Positions 20,735 through 28,416 of a DNA stretch of 64,000 bases are shown one piece after another (the stretch's first letter is position 1; each line of letters starts with the position of its first letter). Origin of the DNA: Candidatus Aramenus sulfurataquae (GTDB taxonomy: Archaea; Thermoproteota; Thermoprotei_A; Sulfolobales; Sulfolobaceae); contig ASRH01000002.1 in the NCBI GenBank assembly GCA_000565255.1, positions 186,001 to 250,000 of the forward strand. The letters are read 5' to 3'. A program made the translations under genes and the position numbers. The notes beneath the pieces are model-generated. The model had not been told where the DNA came from. It did not search any database and saw only the letters and a list, made by a program, of their open reading frames with translations.

Positions 20735-21088
20735 ATGCCTATGGCCAAGATATTCGTTATTTCCACGGCAGGAAAAGACGACATAAATAGGGCAACCATG
20801 GCCATAAACTTCGCCCTTGGAGCTAGGAATAACGCCAATGCCACGGTATCCCTCATGTTCTTAGGTAGGGGCGTGGAGACGCTGCTCAAGAACGCAGCTA
20901 ACGCAGAGCAGATGAGGAAGTTGGTAAACGACATGATAGAAGCTGGGATCGAGGTAAGCTACTGCGGTATATCCCTCAAAAACCTAGGATTAACCAGGGA
21001 CTTGATTTTCGACAACGTAAAGGAGGTAATGGGAGGAGTGGAGACCGCGAGAAAAATAGATGAAGGATATGCAGTTGTCTCTTTTTAA
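20735..21088 (+). CDS. DsrE-family protein
   Basis: This 117-residue protein has the DsrE/DsrF fold: strand-turn IFVISTAGKDDINRATMAIN, VSLMFLGRGVETL, and the conserved Cys in VSYCGISLKNLGL. Members bind or transfer sulfur as persulfide or thiosulfonate, or act in trimeric complexes. In sulfur-oxidising Sulfolobales several DsrE proteins sit with TusA and heterodisulfide-reductase genes, but none are adjacent here, so a sulfur-carrier role is an inference from the single Cys. The start lies ~15-30 bp after an AT-rich box. Confidence 0.82.
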   Translation: MPMAKIFVISTAGKDDINRATMAINFALGARNNANATVSLMFLGRGVETLLKNAANAEQMRKLVNDMIEAGIEVSYCGISLKNLGLTRDLIFDNVKEVMGGVETARKIDEGYAVVSF

Positions 21089-22119
21089 GAGAGAGTTTTT
21101 ATTTCCTCCACTACAGCCTGCAACGCGTTTGTGTTCTTCCCTACAGCGTACGTTAAGTAGTTGTTGTACTGTGCCACCACAATGTTAGTAGAGTTAAACT
21201 CGAACGAGAGGTACTTTGCTCCATCTATTGACCCCGTTGTGTAGTTCTTGGTGACGTTTTGTATGTGCGACGCTATTGACGAGAACGCCTCCTCAGCGTC
21301 GCTCGCGTTAGCAAACTGGCTCACTCCTAAGGTCAAGTAAGAGGTAGTGTTGGTGTAGAACCCTATGTAGCTAGATAAAATAGTAGTGGTGTTAAGCCCT
21401 ATCTTAGATGAAATAGAGGTGTCATTGACGTATCCCCACCCCGCTAGTTCCATGCTGAGTTTAGGTAAAATGTCAGGAGGAGTCACACTGAGGGTTGAGT
21501 TCTTTACCAGGGAGTTCACTTGCTCTATGAGGAGTTGAGCTGAGTAGTTGGCGTTATTTGAAGTACCGTTCAATAACACCCCCACGAAGACGGAGCCGTT
21601 AAATCCCAAGGCAATCCCAGCCCCAGAGTAATTACCGTAGAAGTAACTGAAGCCCTCGTAGTTGCCGGTCTTTTCAACGGTGAAGTTTGAGCTCAGCAAG
21701 GATATTAGAGCATATACGTAGTTCCTGTTTAGGGACGAGTTAAGTTTCGCGAAACCAATAACTGCAAAAGTAGAGGAGTTGTGTTTCACTACTTCAAACG
21801 CCCCTTCTTTAAACGTGACGTTGCCGAGGTTGAAGCGCGTGAAGTTCACGTGTCCTGACGTTAAGGGAAGTTTGCTCAAGTTGTTCACTTCAAACCACGC
21901 AGCCACGTAGAACGGGGTTATCCCTGTCGCTTGCTCAGCGTATTTAGGGTCTTGGGAAAGCGGAGTTGGTGCTTGTGGGGAGTTAGTTGGCGTAGTAATA
22001 ACGCTAGCCGTCTTGGTTGGGGCAGACACGTGGGAGGAACTGTGGTAGGCAAGTATCTCGTATGCCACTACGGAAATCAAGATTATGGCTATTATGCCCA
22101 CTATAATGTTGGTTCTCAT
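21085..22119 (-). CDS. Membrane-anchored, heavily glycosylatable extracellular protein
   Basis: This 344-residue protein has one N-terminal helix (IIVGIIAIILISVVAYEIL), then a Thr/Ser/Pro-rich stalk (TKTASVITTPTNSPQAPTPL), then a ~270-residue outer domain rich in N-x-S/T sites (NLS, NFT, NSS, NYS, NGT and more). A stalk plus glycosylated domain is typical of cell-surface proteins or solute-binding proteins of Sulfolobales. No known domain is recognised. A TTTTATAA box lies ~25-32 bp upstream of the ATG. Its 3' end overlaps the DsrE gene by 4 bp. Confidence 0.75.
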   Translation of the reverse strand: MRTNIIVGIIAIILISVVAYEILAYHSSSHVSAPTKTASVITTPTNSPQAPTPLSQDPKYAEQATGITPFYVAAWFEVNNLSKLPLTSGHVNFTRFNLGNVTFKEGAFEVVKHNSSTFAVIGFAKLNSSLNRNYVYALISLLSSNFTVEKTGNYEGFSYFYGNYSGAGIALGFNGSVFVGVLLNGTSNNANYSAQLLIEQVNSLVKNSTLSVTPPDILPKLSMELAGWGYVNDTSISSKIGLNTTTILSSYIGFYTNTTSYLTLGVSQFANASDAEEAFSSIASHIQNVTKNYTTGSIDGAKYLSFEFNSTNIVVAQYNNYLTYAVGKNTNALQAVVEEIKTLS

Positions 22120-22253: not shown

Positions 22254-22262
22254 TTTATAAAA
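22254..22262 (+). promoter_or_regulatory. TATA box of the S53 protease / PNGase A operon
   Basis: TTTATAAAA lies 21-29 bp before ATG 22283, so the operon transcript should be leaderless. Confidence 0.7.
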
Positions 22263-22282: not shown

Positions 22283-25200
22283 ATGGTCTTATCCAAAAAT
22301 ATTACACTGATGTTGATTTTTCTCCTGTTAGGGATTTTGTTTCCGAGTTTTGTAGGGATGGGTCTTAGCTCTCAAGTGCAGTACGTTGGACCCCAGCTAT
22401 TGGGCAACGAGATCGGCCCACTCAGCCCTAGTGGTCAACTCTGCATTGAGGTTTTTGTGCCACCCAAGGACATGAACGAGCTTTACTTAGTGGCTCAAGA
22501 AGTTGCAAACCACCAGATAAAACCTCTGTCAAACTCGCAGTTGATCTCAATGTTTGGGCAACAGCAGAAGGTAGACGAAATTGCCCAAGCCCTTGAGCAA
22601 GAAGGGTTCCAAGTTGTGTATGAGAGCCCCTTCTCTCTAATAGCACAAGCGCCTGCAGGCACTGTGGAGAGGCTATTCTCAACCCAGCTCTACTTGTTCA
22701 ACAATAGCGGGGAAACGTACTACAAGCCAGTGGCAACCCCTAAGGTACCAGAGTTCCTTAAGGGCGTCGTAATAGGGGGATTGACTAACTTCACCTTAAT
22801 TAGGCCTCAGCACATCGTTGTGGGCAAGGTTGAAAACGGAGCCCTAATCCCTACCTCCCTACAAGGGTTGCCCACTTTCCAGTTCTCCGCCTTATACTAC
22901 ACTCCAAAGGACTTCCAGGGCGCCTATAACGTCACAGGAAATAAGCCAGGGTATAACGTCACTGTGGCAGTAGTAGACGCCTATGGTGACCCGGAGATCT
23001 ATCAAGACTTGAAGGCTTTTGACAAGATGTTTGGCCTTCCTCCAATTAACCTGACCGTGATCCCGGTGGGCCCATATCATCCAATCTACGGCATCTTAAC
23101 TGGCTGGGCAACAGAGACCGCGTTGGACGTGGAGATGGTTCACACAATGGCGCCTTACGCTAAAGTCGACTTAGTCGTAGCGTCAAACAATGGACCGGCA
23201 TTGTTCGAGGCAATAGACCTCATAGTTAGCGAGGACTTGGCGCAAGTGGTGAGCATGAGCTGGGGAGCCCCGGAAAACTTGTACTCCGCCTCCGGCTTTT
23301 ACGCAGTAGTAGACGGAGTTCCTATTCCCAATTACCCCTACCTTGACTACTACTTCATGCTTGGCGCAGCTGAGGGAATCTCATTCTTTGCGGCATCAGG
23401 AGACGAGGGAGCCTACGGAGGTACCTTGACGACGTACGGTGGAGTGATATTCCCGTCCTCTTCTCCTTTCGTGACAGCAGTGGGTGGCACCTCACTTTAC
23501 GTTAACGTCACCTCCGGCTACTTGTCGTCCTATAACTCTACTGCAACCTACGGTTACGAAACTGCGTGGAGCGTTAGCCCGTGGTACGCTGGCATAGGGA
23601 CTAGTACAGTCAGCTCCACCGGAGGCTACAGCACCTTCTTCCCAGCACCGTGGTACCAAATTCCAATTACCCACTCCAAATTTAGGACTACCCCTGACGT
23701 GGCTGCAGACGCGAACCCATACACAGGTGGTGTGATAATAGTTGATGGCCAAGAGGAAGTGATAGGAGGGACTAGCATGGCTGCTCCCCTGTGGTCTGGG
23801 GCAATAGCTGACGTGGACTCCTACCTAGGGAAATCCCTCGGTCTAGTTAACCCCCTGCTTTACGGGATTTATGTGAACAAGACCTTGTACAGCGAGGCCT
23901 TCCACCCAGTTACGTTTGGTTACAACGGCAAGTACAGCGCCAACAGCTCCTACAACCTAGTAACTGGACTGGGTAGCCCCAACGTAGGAGGGCTCGAGGA
24001 GGCAATATCCTACATGCTAAGTCACGTTAAACACTTGGACATATCGGTGAGCACTTTCGAGCCTGGAGTTACATATCCTTGGTACATGTACGGCTCAACG
24101 TTTACAGTGGTGGCCTACATCTCTACGCAGGGAGGCAGGATAGTAACTAATGGCTCTTTTAATGCGTACATCTATACGTTGGACGGCTTCCTGGCTGAAG
24201 TTCCCTTGACTTTTAACGGCACGTACTGGGTCGGGAACTTCACGATATCGCCCGGAGATCCGCCCAATGTCTGGAGCATAGTAGTCAACGGCACTGCCTA
24301 CAACGAGACTGGAGTTGGAGCAGTTGACGTAGACGTGGGCGAGTCAGTAAACATTCTGACGCCAGTTGGCGATTTCCTGCCCATCGACGAACCAATAACA
24401 GTGGAGGCGTGTATTTACTACCCCAACGGAACACCCGTTACTTCTCAGACCTTCACTGCGTACTTCATCCAAAACGGCGTGAGCTACGCTAACGTCACCC
24501 TCCTTCCTACTACTACTCCGGGGCTCTATAAGGGCGTCACAGCGTTCCTACCCCCGACTCCACAAGGAACGTACATATTGGTAATTAACAACACGTACGG
24601 CAGTGCGTACACTTACGACTACGTGGGAGGAGTCATAGAAGGCCTAGTCTTTACCCCCATAAATGACGGGTTACCCTCAGCTGACCCTGGGCAGAACATA
24701 ACCATATTTGGGCTTGCGGAAGGTTCCAACGGTCTTGGGATATTCACCTCTAATATGACTGCCTACATCTACAATCCAGAAGGTAGGCTGGTCGCCTCAG
24801 TGCCGATGGTCCCAGCACCGGACGTACCCCAGTTCGGCATCATAGATGCCTTCTTATTCCACGAGGCCAACTTTACTATTCCAAGTAACTTCACCCCTGG
24901 ATTCTACACTGTGGTAATTGAGGCTAACGTACCTACGTCAGTGGGCACAGAAGTTGCCAACTTTACTACCTCTTTCTACGTGGGTAGTTCAACGCTTACT
25001 GCAGAGGTGAGGGGGGTGACTACAGCGTATGAGGGCCAGAACTTAGTGGTCACGGCGAACGTAACTTACCCCAACGGCACTGAAGTAAAATATGGAGAGT
25101 TCTCGTTGACCTTGCTCCCATCGCAGTTCTCCTTTGCCTCGCTTATAGTTGAGTTAGACACCTACGTGCCCATGCAGTATGATTCAAAACTCAACGAGTG

Positions 25201-26197
25201 GGTCGGAGTTTTCACAGTGCCCTCCGTGCTTAACGACTACACCGGTTACTCATATTTCTACGAGGGGGCAAACCCATACGAGCTGTCTGGCCCCTGGAAT
25301 CTAGTAATAACAGGGGTCTCTGCAGGAGGACACAACGTCTACTACTCTACCTTCCTAAACGTAATGCCATACACTTACCTAGGAAACCTAGTTGTCAACG
25401 CTGAGAACATTAGCGCAGTACCGCTCATGGCATTCAACGGTACCACTTACTTCTTAGACAACGTCTACGTGAACTCGCTAAAGGTAAGCGGAGTGGGAGG
25501 AATTGTACTTGAGGACTCCATAGTCGGCGAGCTCGACGCGTACAACTCGACTGTAGTTGTAGAGAACTCTAAAGTAATCCAGGTTAACGCTGTGGGCTCT
25601 AACTTGACCTTTATCCAAGACACGCTAGGCGGGAAGAATGTGGCCTTAAGCCTAACCTCCTCCACCGCTAAACTGATAAGCTCCGTGATCGAGGACTCCT
25701 CTTACGCCTTTAACATCAGCAACTCTGTGGTGACGCAAGAGGGAGTCAGCGAGGTTAACGTAGTAAACGAGTCGACCCTACCCGAGCCCACAGTAACTTA
25801 CGTGTCCCCAGTTAACGTCACTACCGCCACTTCGACCGTAACTGTTAACATCACGGGAGAAAAGCTAAAGGTCGCTTCAGTGAAGGTTGACGGCAGTCCG
25901 GTGAGCTATTCCGTTAGTACTACTAGCAGTGGAGTGTCGGTATCCGTTCCCTTTAATGCCTCCAAGTTGCCCGACGGGCTCTACACAATAGAGGTAACGG
26001 TGTCCGACGGGCTTAGTTACACCTTGTACGCCAACTTCTACAACTCTTACCACGAGGTGGTCGCTAGTGGTCAAATAAGTTCCCTACATAGTTCCCTCAA
26101 CTCCGTGGGCACCGACAGTTACGTCGGGATAGGCATAGCCTCAGTTGGCCTAATAATAGGGATAGTTGCGTTGATTTTGTCTCTAAGGAAGAGGTGA
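22283..26197 (+). CDS. Secreted, surface-anchored S53 (sedolisin/kumamolisin) serine protease
   Basis: This 1304-residue protein carries a signal peptide (~1-25), a pro-kumamolisin activation domain (~30-200), a peptidase S53 domain (~205-590), several beta-sandwich repeats (~600-1130) and a C-terminal membrane anchor (VGIGIASVGLIIGIVALIL then SLRKR). The S53 catalytic set is visible: Glu278 and Asp282 in WATETALDVEM, oxyanion Asp374 in SGDEGAYG, and Ser498 in GGTSMAAP. These enzymes act at acid pH, fitting an acidophile outside the cell. Many N-x-S/T sites suggest glycosylation. Its stop overlaps the GTG of the PNGase A-like gene, so both are made together. Confidence 0.93.
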   Translation: MVLSKNITLMLIFLLLGILFPSFVGMGLSSQVQYVGPQLLGNEIGPLSPSGQLCIEVFVPPKDMNELYLVAQEVANHQIKPLSNSQLISMFGQQQKVDEIAQALEQEGFQVVYESPFSLIAQAPAGTVERLFSTQLYLFNNSGETYYKPVATPKVPEFLKGVVIGGLTNFTLIRPQHIVVGKVENGALIPTSLQGLPTFQFSALYYTPKDFQGAYNVTGNKPGYNVTVAVVDAYGDPEIYQDLKAFDKMFGLPPINLTVIPVGPYHPIYGILTGWATETALDVEMVHTMAPYAKVDLVVASNNGPALFEAIDLIVSEDLAQVVSMSWGAPENLYSASGFYAVVDGVPIPNYPYLDYYFMLGAAEGISFFAASGDEGAYGGTLTTYGGVIFPSSSPFVTAVGGTSLYVNVTSGYLSSYNSTATYGYETAWSVSPWYAGIGTSTVSSTGGYSTFFPAPWYQIPITHSKFRTTPDVAADANPYTGGVIIVDGQEEVIGGTSMAAPLWSGAIADVDSYLGKSLGLVNPLLYGIYVNKTLYSEAFHPVTFGYNGKYSANSSYNLVTGLGSPNVGGLEEAISYMLSHVKHLDISVSTFEPGVTYPWYMYGSTFTVVAYISTQGGRIVTNGSFNAYIYTLDGFLAEVPLTFNGTYWVGNFTISPGDPPNVWSIVVNGTAYNETGVGAVDVDVGESVNILTPVGDFLPIDEPITVEACIYYPNGTPVTSQTFTAYFIQNGVSYANVTLLPTTTPGLYKGVTAFLPPTPQGTYILVINNTYGSAYTYDYVGGVIEGLVFTPINDGLPSADPGQNITIFGLAEGSNGLGIFTSNMTAYIYNPEGRLVASVPMVPAPDVPQFGIIDAFLFHEANFTIPSNFTPGFYTVVIEANVPTSVGTEVANFTTSFYVGSSTLTAEVRGVTTAYEGQNLVVTANVTYPNGTEVKYGEFSLTLLPSQFSFASLIVELDTYVPMQYDSKLNEWVGVFTVPSVLNDYTGYSYFYEGANPYELSGPWNLVITGVSAGGHNVYYSTFLNVMPYTYLGNLVVNAENISAVPLMAFNGTTYFLDNVYVNSLKVSGVGGIVLEDSIVGELDAYNSTVVVENSKVIQVNAVGSNLTFIQDTLGGKNVALSLTSSTAKLISSVIEDSSYAFNISNSVVTQEGVSEVNVVNESTLPEPTVTYVSPVNVTTATSTVTVNITGEKLKVASVKVDGSPVSYSVSTTSSGVSVSVPFNASKLPDGLYTIEVTVSDGLSYTLYANFYNSYHEVVASGQISSLHSSLNSVGTDSYVGIGIASVGLIIGIVALILSLRKR

Positions 26198-28077
26198 GTA
26201 AAATGAAGAGGTTGGCCCTAATTTACTTGTTGTTCCTCTTCCTAGGGATCTTTTTATTTGTAACCCCAGCTAACTCGAGCTCTACAACCCCAGTACTGCA
26301 ACACCCGTTCATACCCACTAACGTTACTGTTAGCTCTACAGCGCCCTTCAAACAAGACCCGGTCTTCTACTCCTTCGAGGCTTACCACCTACAGTCCCCA
26401 AACGTGACCCCGGTGAAGGTGGTAATAGCAAAGGACTTGATCTTCAACGACACAGGGCTCAAGCCCTACTACCTCCACGTTTACGTACCTCCTGGGAACT
26501 ACTCCATGGAGATACTCAACGTCACGATTAAGGAGTTCAACGGGACGCAGTACGATAGACCGGTTTACGTGTTTGCGGACGGCGTCCCAATCTTCTGGGG
26601 CTCCACCCAAGAGATAAACAACTCAACAACTGAGGCAGACGTTACCGTGTTCGAGAACCTCCTAAGGGGAAACGTGACCTTCGAAGCGGTAATACAGAAC
26701 TACTACGACGTGAAGGTTAACATAACTGGCCTTTACGAGCTCAACATGACTCTCTACTTGTACCCAGGAGCACAGCCAAAAGGATTGCCAAACGCCTTCA
26801 TCCCGCTCTTCGTTAACGCTACTGTGCCTTACAACTACTCCTACGTGGTCTTAAGCCCCTTGGAGGACTCCTACACCTGCGCTGTAACTATTCCCAACGG
26901 TACATATAAGGTACAAGCGTTGATCTACGAGGAGGGAGGGGGACTTGACGAGTTTTGGTACACGAACGAGCCTGCAACGAGGAGTATACTAGTTTACTAC
27001 GACTCCCACTTGGCTGGCGTCGTCAACCCTTACGAGACCATATACACTGGAGGAATTGATCTACTCTACTGGAAACCGCTGACTTCTATAGACACGCTTT
27101 CCTTCCACAACCCCTACGTCATAGACTTAACGCCTATGTTGGCTTACGGCGAGGAAGCTAACATAACCGTTAGCGTCACCAACCTAGTGACAGCCCTCCA
27201 GCTCACCGGAACTCCAGACTACTTCTGGGACATAGCTGGAGTCCTAATGCTGTGGGTCAATAGCTCCAACCCCTTGGTGAACTCCACTGTTATCACGGAG
27301 TACCAGAGGTTCCTAGACAGCGGTCCCATATTTAACCAAGGTTTCTTGGGATTCTACTACCAAGAGGGAGGGAGCTACCTGTTAAACTACACTTCAATGC
27401 TTTACTTCAAGCACGGCTACGAGCTCGCCTCCACAGTTCAGGAAGGGAGGTTCTACGCTTATCAGACGTTCAACAACATATATGAGCTAGCCAACTTGTC
27501 AGAGACCTTCACAGAGTACGCGAAGGACTACGGCATGTACAACTACACTCTCGCAATCTCGGGCAGTTATCCCATATCCATGTACGTTGACTCCTTTGCG
27601 ACGCCAATAACGAGTCCCAGCGTCATACCGTATAACTTGAGTTTTGAGCAACTGGGGGAAATACATCTAGGGCTAAACTACTACTGCGCCTACTCCTTCA
27701 ACGGATACAACGTTAGCTCCAACATTGTGGAGAACTTGAAGGCTAAGGGAGGGTTTGGAGGGATAATGGAGATAATAAATAGGTATGGAGGTGCAGTTCT
27801 CGTGGTGCTGACGTTTAACAACGCGGTCACAATTAAGAACTTGAACTTCACGTACTTAGTAAACGGAAAGGGCTTTGACGAGCTCTTCTCCGCGGAGGGA
27901 ATACAGAACAGCACTGTCAACTTAAACGGCTACTACAAGTACGTGAGCGAGGAGTTCTCAAGCGTAGGTGACCCCAGCCCAACCCAGTTAGTGCCCTCGA
28001 CGTACGCGGTTTACCAGGAGATGTCACTGACTTTCTTCAGAGAAATGAGAGTCCTCTACGTCTTCGTCAAAGTATAA
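26194..28077 (+). CDS. Secreted PNGase A-like peptide amidase
   Basis: This 627-residue protein has a signal peptide (LALIYLLFLFLGIFLF) and no evident C-terminal anchor. Two regions look like peptide-N4-(N-acetyl-beta-glucosaminyl) asparagine amidase A: an N-terminal block (YVFADGVPIFWGSTQEI, then VTVFENLLRG) and the hallmark YKVQALIYEEGGGLDEFWYT. PNGase A removes N-glycans from glycopeptides at acid pH. The catalytic residues are not established for this branch. The start is GTG 26194 (ATGA-like overlap with the protease) or ATG 26203 three codons later. Cotranscription with the S53 protease suggests joint breakdown of glycoproteins. The 3' end overlaps the opposite-strand gene by 54 bp. Confidence 0.72.
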   Translation: MSKMKRLALIYLLFLFLGIFLFVTPANSSSTTPVLQHPFIPTNVTVSSTAPFKQDPVFYSFEAYHLQSPNVTPVKVVIAKDLIFNDTGLKPYYLHVYVPPGNYSMEILNVTIKEFNGTQYDRPVYVFADGVPIFWGSTQEINNSTTEADVTVFENLLRGNVTFEAVIQNYYDVKVNITGLYELNMTLYLYPGAQPKGLPNAFIPLFVNATVPYNYSYVVLSPLEDSYTCAVTIPNGTYKVQALIYEEGGGLDEFWYTNEPATRSILVYYDSHLAGVVNPYETIYTGGIDLLYWKPLTSIDTLSFHNPYVIDLTPMLAYGEEANITVSVTNLVTALQLTGTPDYFWDIAGVLMLWVNSSNPLVNSTVITEYQRFLDSGPIFNQGFLGFYYQEGGSYLLNYTSMLYFKHGYELASTVQEGRFYAYQTFNNIYELANLSETFTEYAKDYGMYNYTLAISGSYPISMYVDSFATPITSPSVIPYNLSFEQLGEIHLGLNYYCAYSFNGYNVSSNIVENLKAKGGFGGIMEIINRYGGAVLVVLTFNNAVTIKNLNFTYLVNGKGFDELFSAEGIQNSTVNLNGYYKYVSEEFSSVGDPSPTQLVPSTYAVYQEMSLTFFREMRVLYVFVKV

Positions 28078-28416
28078 GTTTTCTTCCTCTTCCTCCTCTT
28101 CCCTTTGACCTCCTCCCTTACCTTGTCCCTCGCTCTTCCCCTTTTTCTTCTGGTACTCCTTCCTTGACCTCTCCTCCAGATCAACGTACTGCTTTGTGGC
28201 CTCATTTAAGGCGTATCCTAGCCTGTGGTATAGGAGGGCTGCCTCCGATTGCGACAGCTGAAAGGCTACCCTGTTTTCCCCGTCATCGATCACGAGCAGG
28301 AACCTAGCCTCCTGTGGGAACCCCTTGTCGTTTACAATTGCGTCATCTATCAGTAGCTCAAGTGCCTTGGTCTTAGAGTCCTTGGTGAACCTAGGTATCC
28401 TAAGTATTCTTTTCAT
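28024..28416 (-). CDS. Conserved small protein with acidic tail, unknown function
   Basis: This 130-residue protein has a folded N-terminal ~80 residues (KALELLIDDAIVNDKGFP, FLLVIDDGENRVAFQLSQ), a basic stretch (RSRKEYQKKKGKSEG), a Gly-rich turn and a strongly acidic tail with a run of Glu residues and DEDVEDSHF. The charge-segregated end is reminiscent of nucleic-acid or chaperone partners. No family is recognised. The acidic tail is encoded antisense to the last 18 codons of the PNGase A-like gene. It is divergent from the PurM-like gene, 35 bp apart. Confidence 0.65.
   Translation of the reverse strand: MKRILRIPRFTKDSKTKALELLIDDAIVNDKGFPQEARFLLVIDDGENRVAFQLSQSEAALLYHRLGYALNEATKQYVDLEERSRKEYQKKKGKSEGQGKGGGQREEEEEEENLYFDEDVEDSHFSEESQ

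Follow-up and report, generated by a model that had tools for sequence, protein, structure and literature searches.

A stalked S53 protease gene and a PNGase A family gene form a conserved adjacent pair in Candidatus Aramenus sulfurataquae and other Sulfolobaceae

The assembly of N-glycans in archaea is well studied, but their removal is not; no proven enzyme for archaeal N-glycan removal was found in the open-licence literature. N-glycans of the Sulfolobales are linked via chitobiose, and the surface layer (S-layer) of Sulfolobus acidocaldarius is heavily glycosylated (PMC2948927). The S-layer protein SlaA carries 27 confirmed glycans (PMC10903991), and glycans of a Sulfolobus strain are released by PNGase F (PMC12042106). 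PNGase F requires Asp60 and Glu206, and a zebrafish acid PNGase requires the equivalent pair (PMC12753239). The locus described here lies in a 64,000-nucleotide stretch (the window) of contig ASRH01000002.1 from Candidatus Aramenus sulfurataquae, also known as Sulfolobales archaeon AZ1, whose habitat is a hot spring (pH 3.6, 65 C; PMC3945513). The source assembly comprises 46 contigs and 1,798,894 bases. Positions 22283-28077 of the window are occupied by two plus-strand genes, an S53 protease gene followed by a PNGase A family gene; the open reading frame listing gives them the coordinates assigned in an earlier note on this DNA, 22283-26197 and 26194-28077. Both families are known, and the amidase annotation has already been published. 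Within the open-licence literature, two things appear to be new: that a stalked S53 protease of a single lineage is closely paired with the PNGase gene throughout the family, and that structure backs the placement of the protein in PNGase A.

The second gene (26194..28077, plus strand) encodes a secreted protein without an anchor of its own, 627 amino acids long if translated from GTG 26194 and 624 if translated from ATG 26203. The protein matches the Pfam family PF12222 (PNGaseA) over residues 96-365 with an E-value of 5e-30 and 104.9 bits (cut-off 25.3), and PNGase Bb (PDB 9vla) at 4.7e-8 as a single sequence and 3.7e-35 with a profile. The AlphaFold model has a mean predicted local distance difference test score (pLDDT) of 79.2 and a predicted template modelling score (pTM) of 0.76. 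It aligns with 9vla at Z 33.0 over 479 residues in the range 55-592, with a root-mean-square deviation of 3.0, and so covers both domains of the solved family member; Foldseek gives 4.6e-27 for the same match. PNGase F (1pnf) aligns at Z 19.4 across residues 69-358, and below the PNGase rows the match list falls to Z <10. The earlier note had called the protein PNGase A-like and proposed structure prediction as a check; the match is strong, and the lack of one that the note named as refuting was not seen.

Residues 69-358 (26398..27267, plus strand) form the two-jelly-roll catalytic module, with putative catalytic residues D121 (nucleotide 26554) and E253 (nucleotide 26950). A C-terminal beta domain follows at residues 361-592 (27274..27969, plus strand). 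The DEFWY and DGVPIFWGSTQE blocks, on which the earlier assignment was based, are present at conserved columns. D121, within QYDR, and E253, within DEFWY, align with the YDR and DEQW motifs of PNGase Bb. At the position of D121 all 60 relatives that have a residue have Asp, and at that of E253 61 of 62 have Glu, the exception being a frameshifted sequence from a metagenome-assembled genome. Motif order and fold indicate that D121 and E253 are probably equivalent to Asp60 and Glu206 of PNGase F. Profile comparison with PNGase F gives a marginal, partial alignment that does not reach the catalytic residues. The Aramenus protein thus resembles PNGase Bb, which was solved with the MUXF glycopeptide, in whole-length fold and in the YDR and DE-x-W motifs; unlike that enzyme, it is a putative enzyme of an archaeal thermoacidophile, with 18% structural identity and an adjoining protease gene. 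It shares the two-jelly-roll module with PNGase F and zebrafish Ngly2 (9lwg), and motif positions point to the same Asp60/Glu206 pair, but its C-terminal beta domain, which it has in common with PNGase Bb, lies beyond the aligned range and its sequence similarity to PNGase F is marginal. Judged from sequence and predicted fold, the product of 26194-28077 very likely cuts sugar chains off proteins.

The first gene (22283..26197, plus strand) encodes an S53 protease of the sedolisin/kumamolisin type, 1304 residues long. It begins with a signal peptide and a prodomain; the catalytic domain comes next, then a long beta-rich C-terminal region, with a membrane anchor at the C-terminus. The pro-kumamolisin activation domain spans residues 43-169 (22409..22789, plus strand; PF09286, 3.7e-17). 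The catalytic domain spans residues 205-567 (22895..23983, plus strand), by alignment with kumamolisin and relatives; the protein aligns with kumamolisin (PDB 1t1e) at 4.9e-31 and has a subtilase-fold Pfam match at 6e-8. The complete S53 catalytic set that the earlier note reported is in place, consisting of the Glu, the Asp, the oxyanion Asp and the Ser of the GTS motif at E278 (nucleotide 23114), D282 (23126), D374 (23402) and S498 (23774). The two calcium-site Asp residues expected near the C-terminus of an S53 catalytic domain are replaced by P542 (window 23906-23908) and N558 (23954-23956), which we take to correspond to Asp316 and Asp338 of kumamolisin. Both are absent from every Sulfolobaceae S53 copy compared, PNGase-linked or not, and both are retained only in the Thermoprotei contig L041. 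This pattern suggests that Sulfolobaceae S53 enzymes may be calcium-independent sedolisins. As to the Aramenus protease: Its homology to S53 peptidases is beyond doubt, and its calcium site is described as degenerate.

The stalk (23990..26107, plus strand) consists in the AlphaFold model of tandem immunoglobulin (Ig)-like beta domains, a beta-helix-like stretch at about 1066-1165, another beta domain and a short coiled-coil helix. Its domain borders are approximate; residues 570-1304 were modelled with seven relatives, at a mean pLDDT of 79 and pTM of 0.45. Foldseek matches to tandem Ig and macroglobulin-type chains carry little functional information. A helix at 1256-1271 precedes a membrane-type helix at 1279-1302 (26117..26188, plus strand), followed by the basic tail RKR, in agreement with the C-terminal anchor noted earlier. 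Prodomain, fold and the Glu/Asp/Asp/Ser set are those of kumamolisin and sedolisin, whereas the stalk of about 700 residues, the membrane anchor and the replaced calcium-ligand Asp residues are not. SsMTP, the thermopsin-like proteases of Saccharolobus solfataricus, are likewise secreted, multi-domain, membrane-linked acid proteases, and are made on peptide media (PMC3958906). They belong, however, to family A5, not S53. We know of no deglycosylase linked to SsMTP.

The linkage of the two genes was surveyed in 197 genomes of the order by profile searches with PF12222 and PF09286, after which loci were read directly. Family f1 is taken as Sulfolobaceae, as it includes the Aramenus genome. In all 31 Sulfolobaceae genomes the PNGase gene is immediately preceded, on the same strand, by an S53 gene, with a spacing of -8 to +11 nucleotides. 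Order-wide, PF12222 was found in 50 genomes, PF09286 in 38 and both in 36; the genes are adjacent in 34, those outside Sulfolobaceae being three genomes of family f6. Among the genomes without a match, those listed first all fall outside Sulfolobaceae. Profile counts suggested that the genes are unlinked in G066 and G171, but direct reading shows them linked; in G046 and G062 they are separated. Most flanking genes change, and it is only in genera g1 and g2 that other window genes remain close to the pair. In a quick tree, the PNGase-linked S53 proteins form a clade of their own (Shimodaira-Hasegawa-like approximate likelihood ratio test 97), apart from other S53 paralogs and including three unlinked f6 members. 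Both genes are under purifying selection, with a ratio of nonsynonymous to synonymous substitution rates of about 0.12 between the two genomes of the genus. The lack of conserved linkage that would have spoken against a dedicated pairing was not seen. Indeed, contigs of other acidophiles have the pair too, among them Caldisphaera-like and Marsarchaeota ones; examples are Marsarchaeota G2 contig L037 and Thermoprotei contig L041. In each of the two trees L037 has the Sulfolobales genome G167 as its neighbour, which hints that the pair may have been transferred as a unit.

It is fairly probable that the two genes constitute a conserved unit for the extracellular breakdown, at low pH, of N-glycoproteins with the Sulfolobales chitobiose core. 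The observations behind this proposal are the families, the fold, the putative active-site residues, the secretion features and the linkage. From these we infer catalytic activity, substrate, order of action and the purpose of the pair. The unit is probably translationally coupled. The S53 protease would be exported, activated by removal of its prodomain and held at the membrane on its long stalk. The PNGase, also exported, would cleave the linkage of Asn to the first N-acetylglucosamine (GlcNAc) by hydrolysis, converting Asn to Asp and releasing the glycan; N-glycans of the Sulfolobales contain a eukaryote-like GlcNAc2 core, which PNGases recognize. PNGase A type enzymes work best on glycopeptides, and the protease therefore probably acts first, opening the protein, with the PNGase then clearing glycans from the fragments. 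Deglycosylated peptides that were formerly shielded could be cut further and taken up. The earlier note had glycan stripping precede digestion; the family assignments of both proteins agree with the two activities, but that order is uncertain in view of the preference for glycopeptides. The substrates would likely be S-layer and other surface glycoproteins of the cell itself and of its neighbours, and S-layer or other N-glycoproteins are plausible in this role.

The Aramenus genome encodes AglB, 59% identical to the AglB of genome G042. An apparent absence of AglB was considered and rejected: a PF02516 search of the genome was empty, but this is a sensitivity problem, as the G042 protein query finds the gene. 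The protease contains 34 N-X-S/T sequons versus 13.2 (standard deviation 3.3) in shuffled sequences and the PNGase protein 25 versus 6.6 (standard deviation 2.3). This two- to fourfold excess is expected of exported proteins, and cytoplasmic neighbours contain almost no sequons. Published expression data concern Saci_1147 ('subtilase') and Saci_1148 ('asparagine amidase'), which appear to be the orthologous pair and the genes read in G042; as at the Aramenus locus, a single PF12222 gene there has an S53 gene directly upstream, and copy number and gene order are part of the basis for the assignment. Earlier papers list the two genes in expression data. They belong to the same iModulon, and on xylose the expression of each is lower (PMC8578740). 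On nutrient depletion saci_1148 goes up and aglH, agl2 and aglB go down, and glycan recycling has been proposed for Saci_1148 alone (PMC6335949). In overfed cells saci_1147 is highly transcribed together with thermopsin (PMC11486757).

Several points weigh against a dedicated unit for glycoprotein breakdown. No enzyme activity is reported for archaeal members of the family in the open-licence literature. A GH38 alpha-mannosidase was not found in genomes G000, G011 and G042, leaving no obvious consumer of the released glycan; as to glycan catabolism in the same genome, DUF608 matches were only weak. Regulation is mixed, raised in both depletion and overfeeding, and is thus not a plain starvation response, and Saci_1147 and Saci_1148 are tied to the pair by inference. 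In families f5 and f10, Vulcanisaeta and Thermoplasmata, a PNGase gene occurs without a linked S53 gene, indicating that the PNGase can act alone.

The last point also bears on a looser arrangement, in which two independent secreted hydrolases share a transcript, and hence the conditions of their expression, but no substrate. The common iModulon (PMC8578740) and the separated genes in two genomes are consistent with such regulatory coupling. It is nevertheless distinctly improbable, as genomes have several S53 lineages but the partner is always the same one, and the junction spacing is held within its narrow range throughout the family. It is very unlikely that the PNGase-like protein is an amidase of another kind or a carbohydrate-binding protein, such as one that partners the protease by binding glycans. 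Jelly-roll folds are common among carbohydrate-binding proteins, which occupy lower rows of the structure matches, the identity to PNGase Bb is low, and in a local alignment read by eye from the sequences Q168 stands opposite E118, the third acid of PNGase F. Against this stand the full-length fold match and the conservation of both essential acids, and PNGase Bb, by the same reading, also lacks an acid at the third place.

The purpose of the pair invites two further alternatives. Instead of serving nutrition, the pair may chiefly edit the surface of the cell that makes it, taking off glycans and trimming proteins of the S-layer, pili and archaella, with shedding, a change of biofilm or the recognition of partners as the purpose. 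The PNGase gene is family-wide and present once per genome, small genomes included, and the protease is anchored in the membrane, inside or beneath the S-layer, according to the AlphaFold model. The drop in glycosylation genes and the rise of saci_1148 on nutrient depletion suggest an envelope change (PMC6335949), and glycan patterns matter for how species recognise each other (PMC7064770). However, a protease attacking its own S-layer would require control, of which none was seen, and self-remodelling as the main role is considered rather unlikely, although sequence does not separate it from nutrition. A role against viruses, competitors or prey, whether in attack or in defence, by digestion of their glycoproteins is extremely unlikely. 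A Sulfolobus virus does digest host glycans, so that surface glycans matter in infection (PMC12042106), but the pair is family-wide and single-copy, no conserved defence genes lie beside it, and two scans of viral contigs found no relative, which led to the rejection of a viral origin or viral relatives. Nothing was found in support of the digestion of host or prey proteins suggested in the earlier note.

A wider proposal can be advanced tentatively, as a possibility that is itself doubtful: the first archaeal PNGase and a stalked protease may form a dedicated surface-glycoprotein turnover system, in which Asn to Asp conversion and cleavage remodel the S-layer and pili. Such a system would open N-glycan removal in archaea to genetic test. 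The pair provides a named candidate for this process, and S. acidocaldarius, which is genetically tractable, is a species in which to test it. Known best from plants and fungi, the enzyme family is a core gene of archaea with eukaryote-type chitobiose core glycans, and the PNGase, if active, would be heat- and acid-stable and of use in glycoprotein analysis.

Some loci depart from the common arrangement. G191, a genome 75% complete, has a linked-clade S53 gene with a coiled-coil stalk (L127, 1-2723), and no PNGase was found after this gene or elsewhere in the genome. An alternative protease partner at unlinked PNGase loci was rejected, as a Pfam scan of 20 neighbours of such genes contained no recognised protease. 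Two unlinked f6 PNGase genes (L092, 3742-10290; L095, 5826-7292) adjoin amino-acid permeases, the former also an oligopeptide-binding protein gene, and in two Thermoplasmata contigs (L045, 12694-14832; L046, 7746-9881) a membrane H+-pyrophosphatase gene comes after the PNGase A-like gene. Contig L036 (JAFMDM010000038.1) is titled Euryarchaeota archaeon, but its pair junction is identical to that of G171:C106, a genome in Sulfolobaceae, and the title is probably wrong.

The second gene directly adjoins the first, and the overlap of four nucleotides described earlier is possible; GTG 26194 may not be the real start, however, and ATG 26203 is at least as likely. A GGTGA ribosome-binding-like motif (26193..26197, plus strand) overlaps the protease stop codon, five bases 5' of this ATG. 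An exact overlap of four nucleotides with an in-frame start is possible in 21 of the 31 Sulfolobaceae genomes; in the others the start lies between -8 and +11 nucleotides, often behind a GGTGA-like motif in the last protease codons. The TATA-box-like TTTATAAAA (22254..22262, plus strand) lies about 25 bp upstream of the S53 start codon, and this position, judged by what is generally known of Sulfolobales promoters, suggests that the transcript of the pair may be leaderless. A terminator scan 3' of the PNGase gene found none. At that end a convergent, highly charged open reading frame of 130 amino acids (28024-28416, minus strand) overlaps the PNGase gene by 54 bases. It is conserved in genera g1 and g2, and the PNGase tail above it is not conserved in other relatives. 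On the other flank, a divergent gene (21085-22119, minus strand) encodes a secreted-looking protein of 344 amino acids with 18 N-X-S/T sequons and without a confident Pfam match; in genus g2 a 30% relative precedes the pair and has the opposite orientation.

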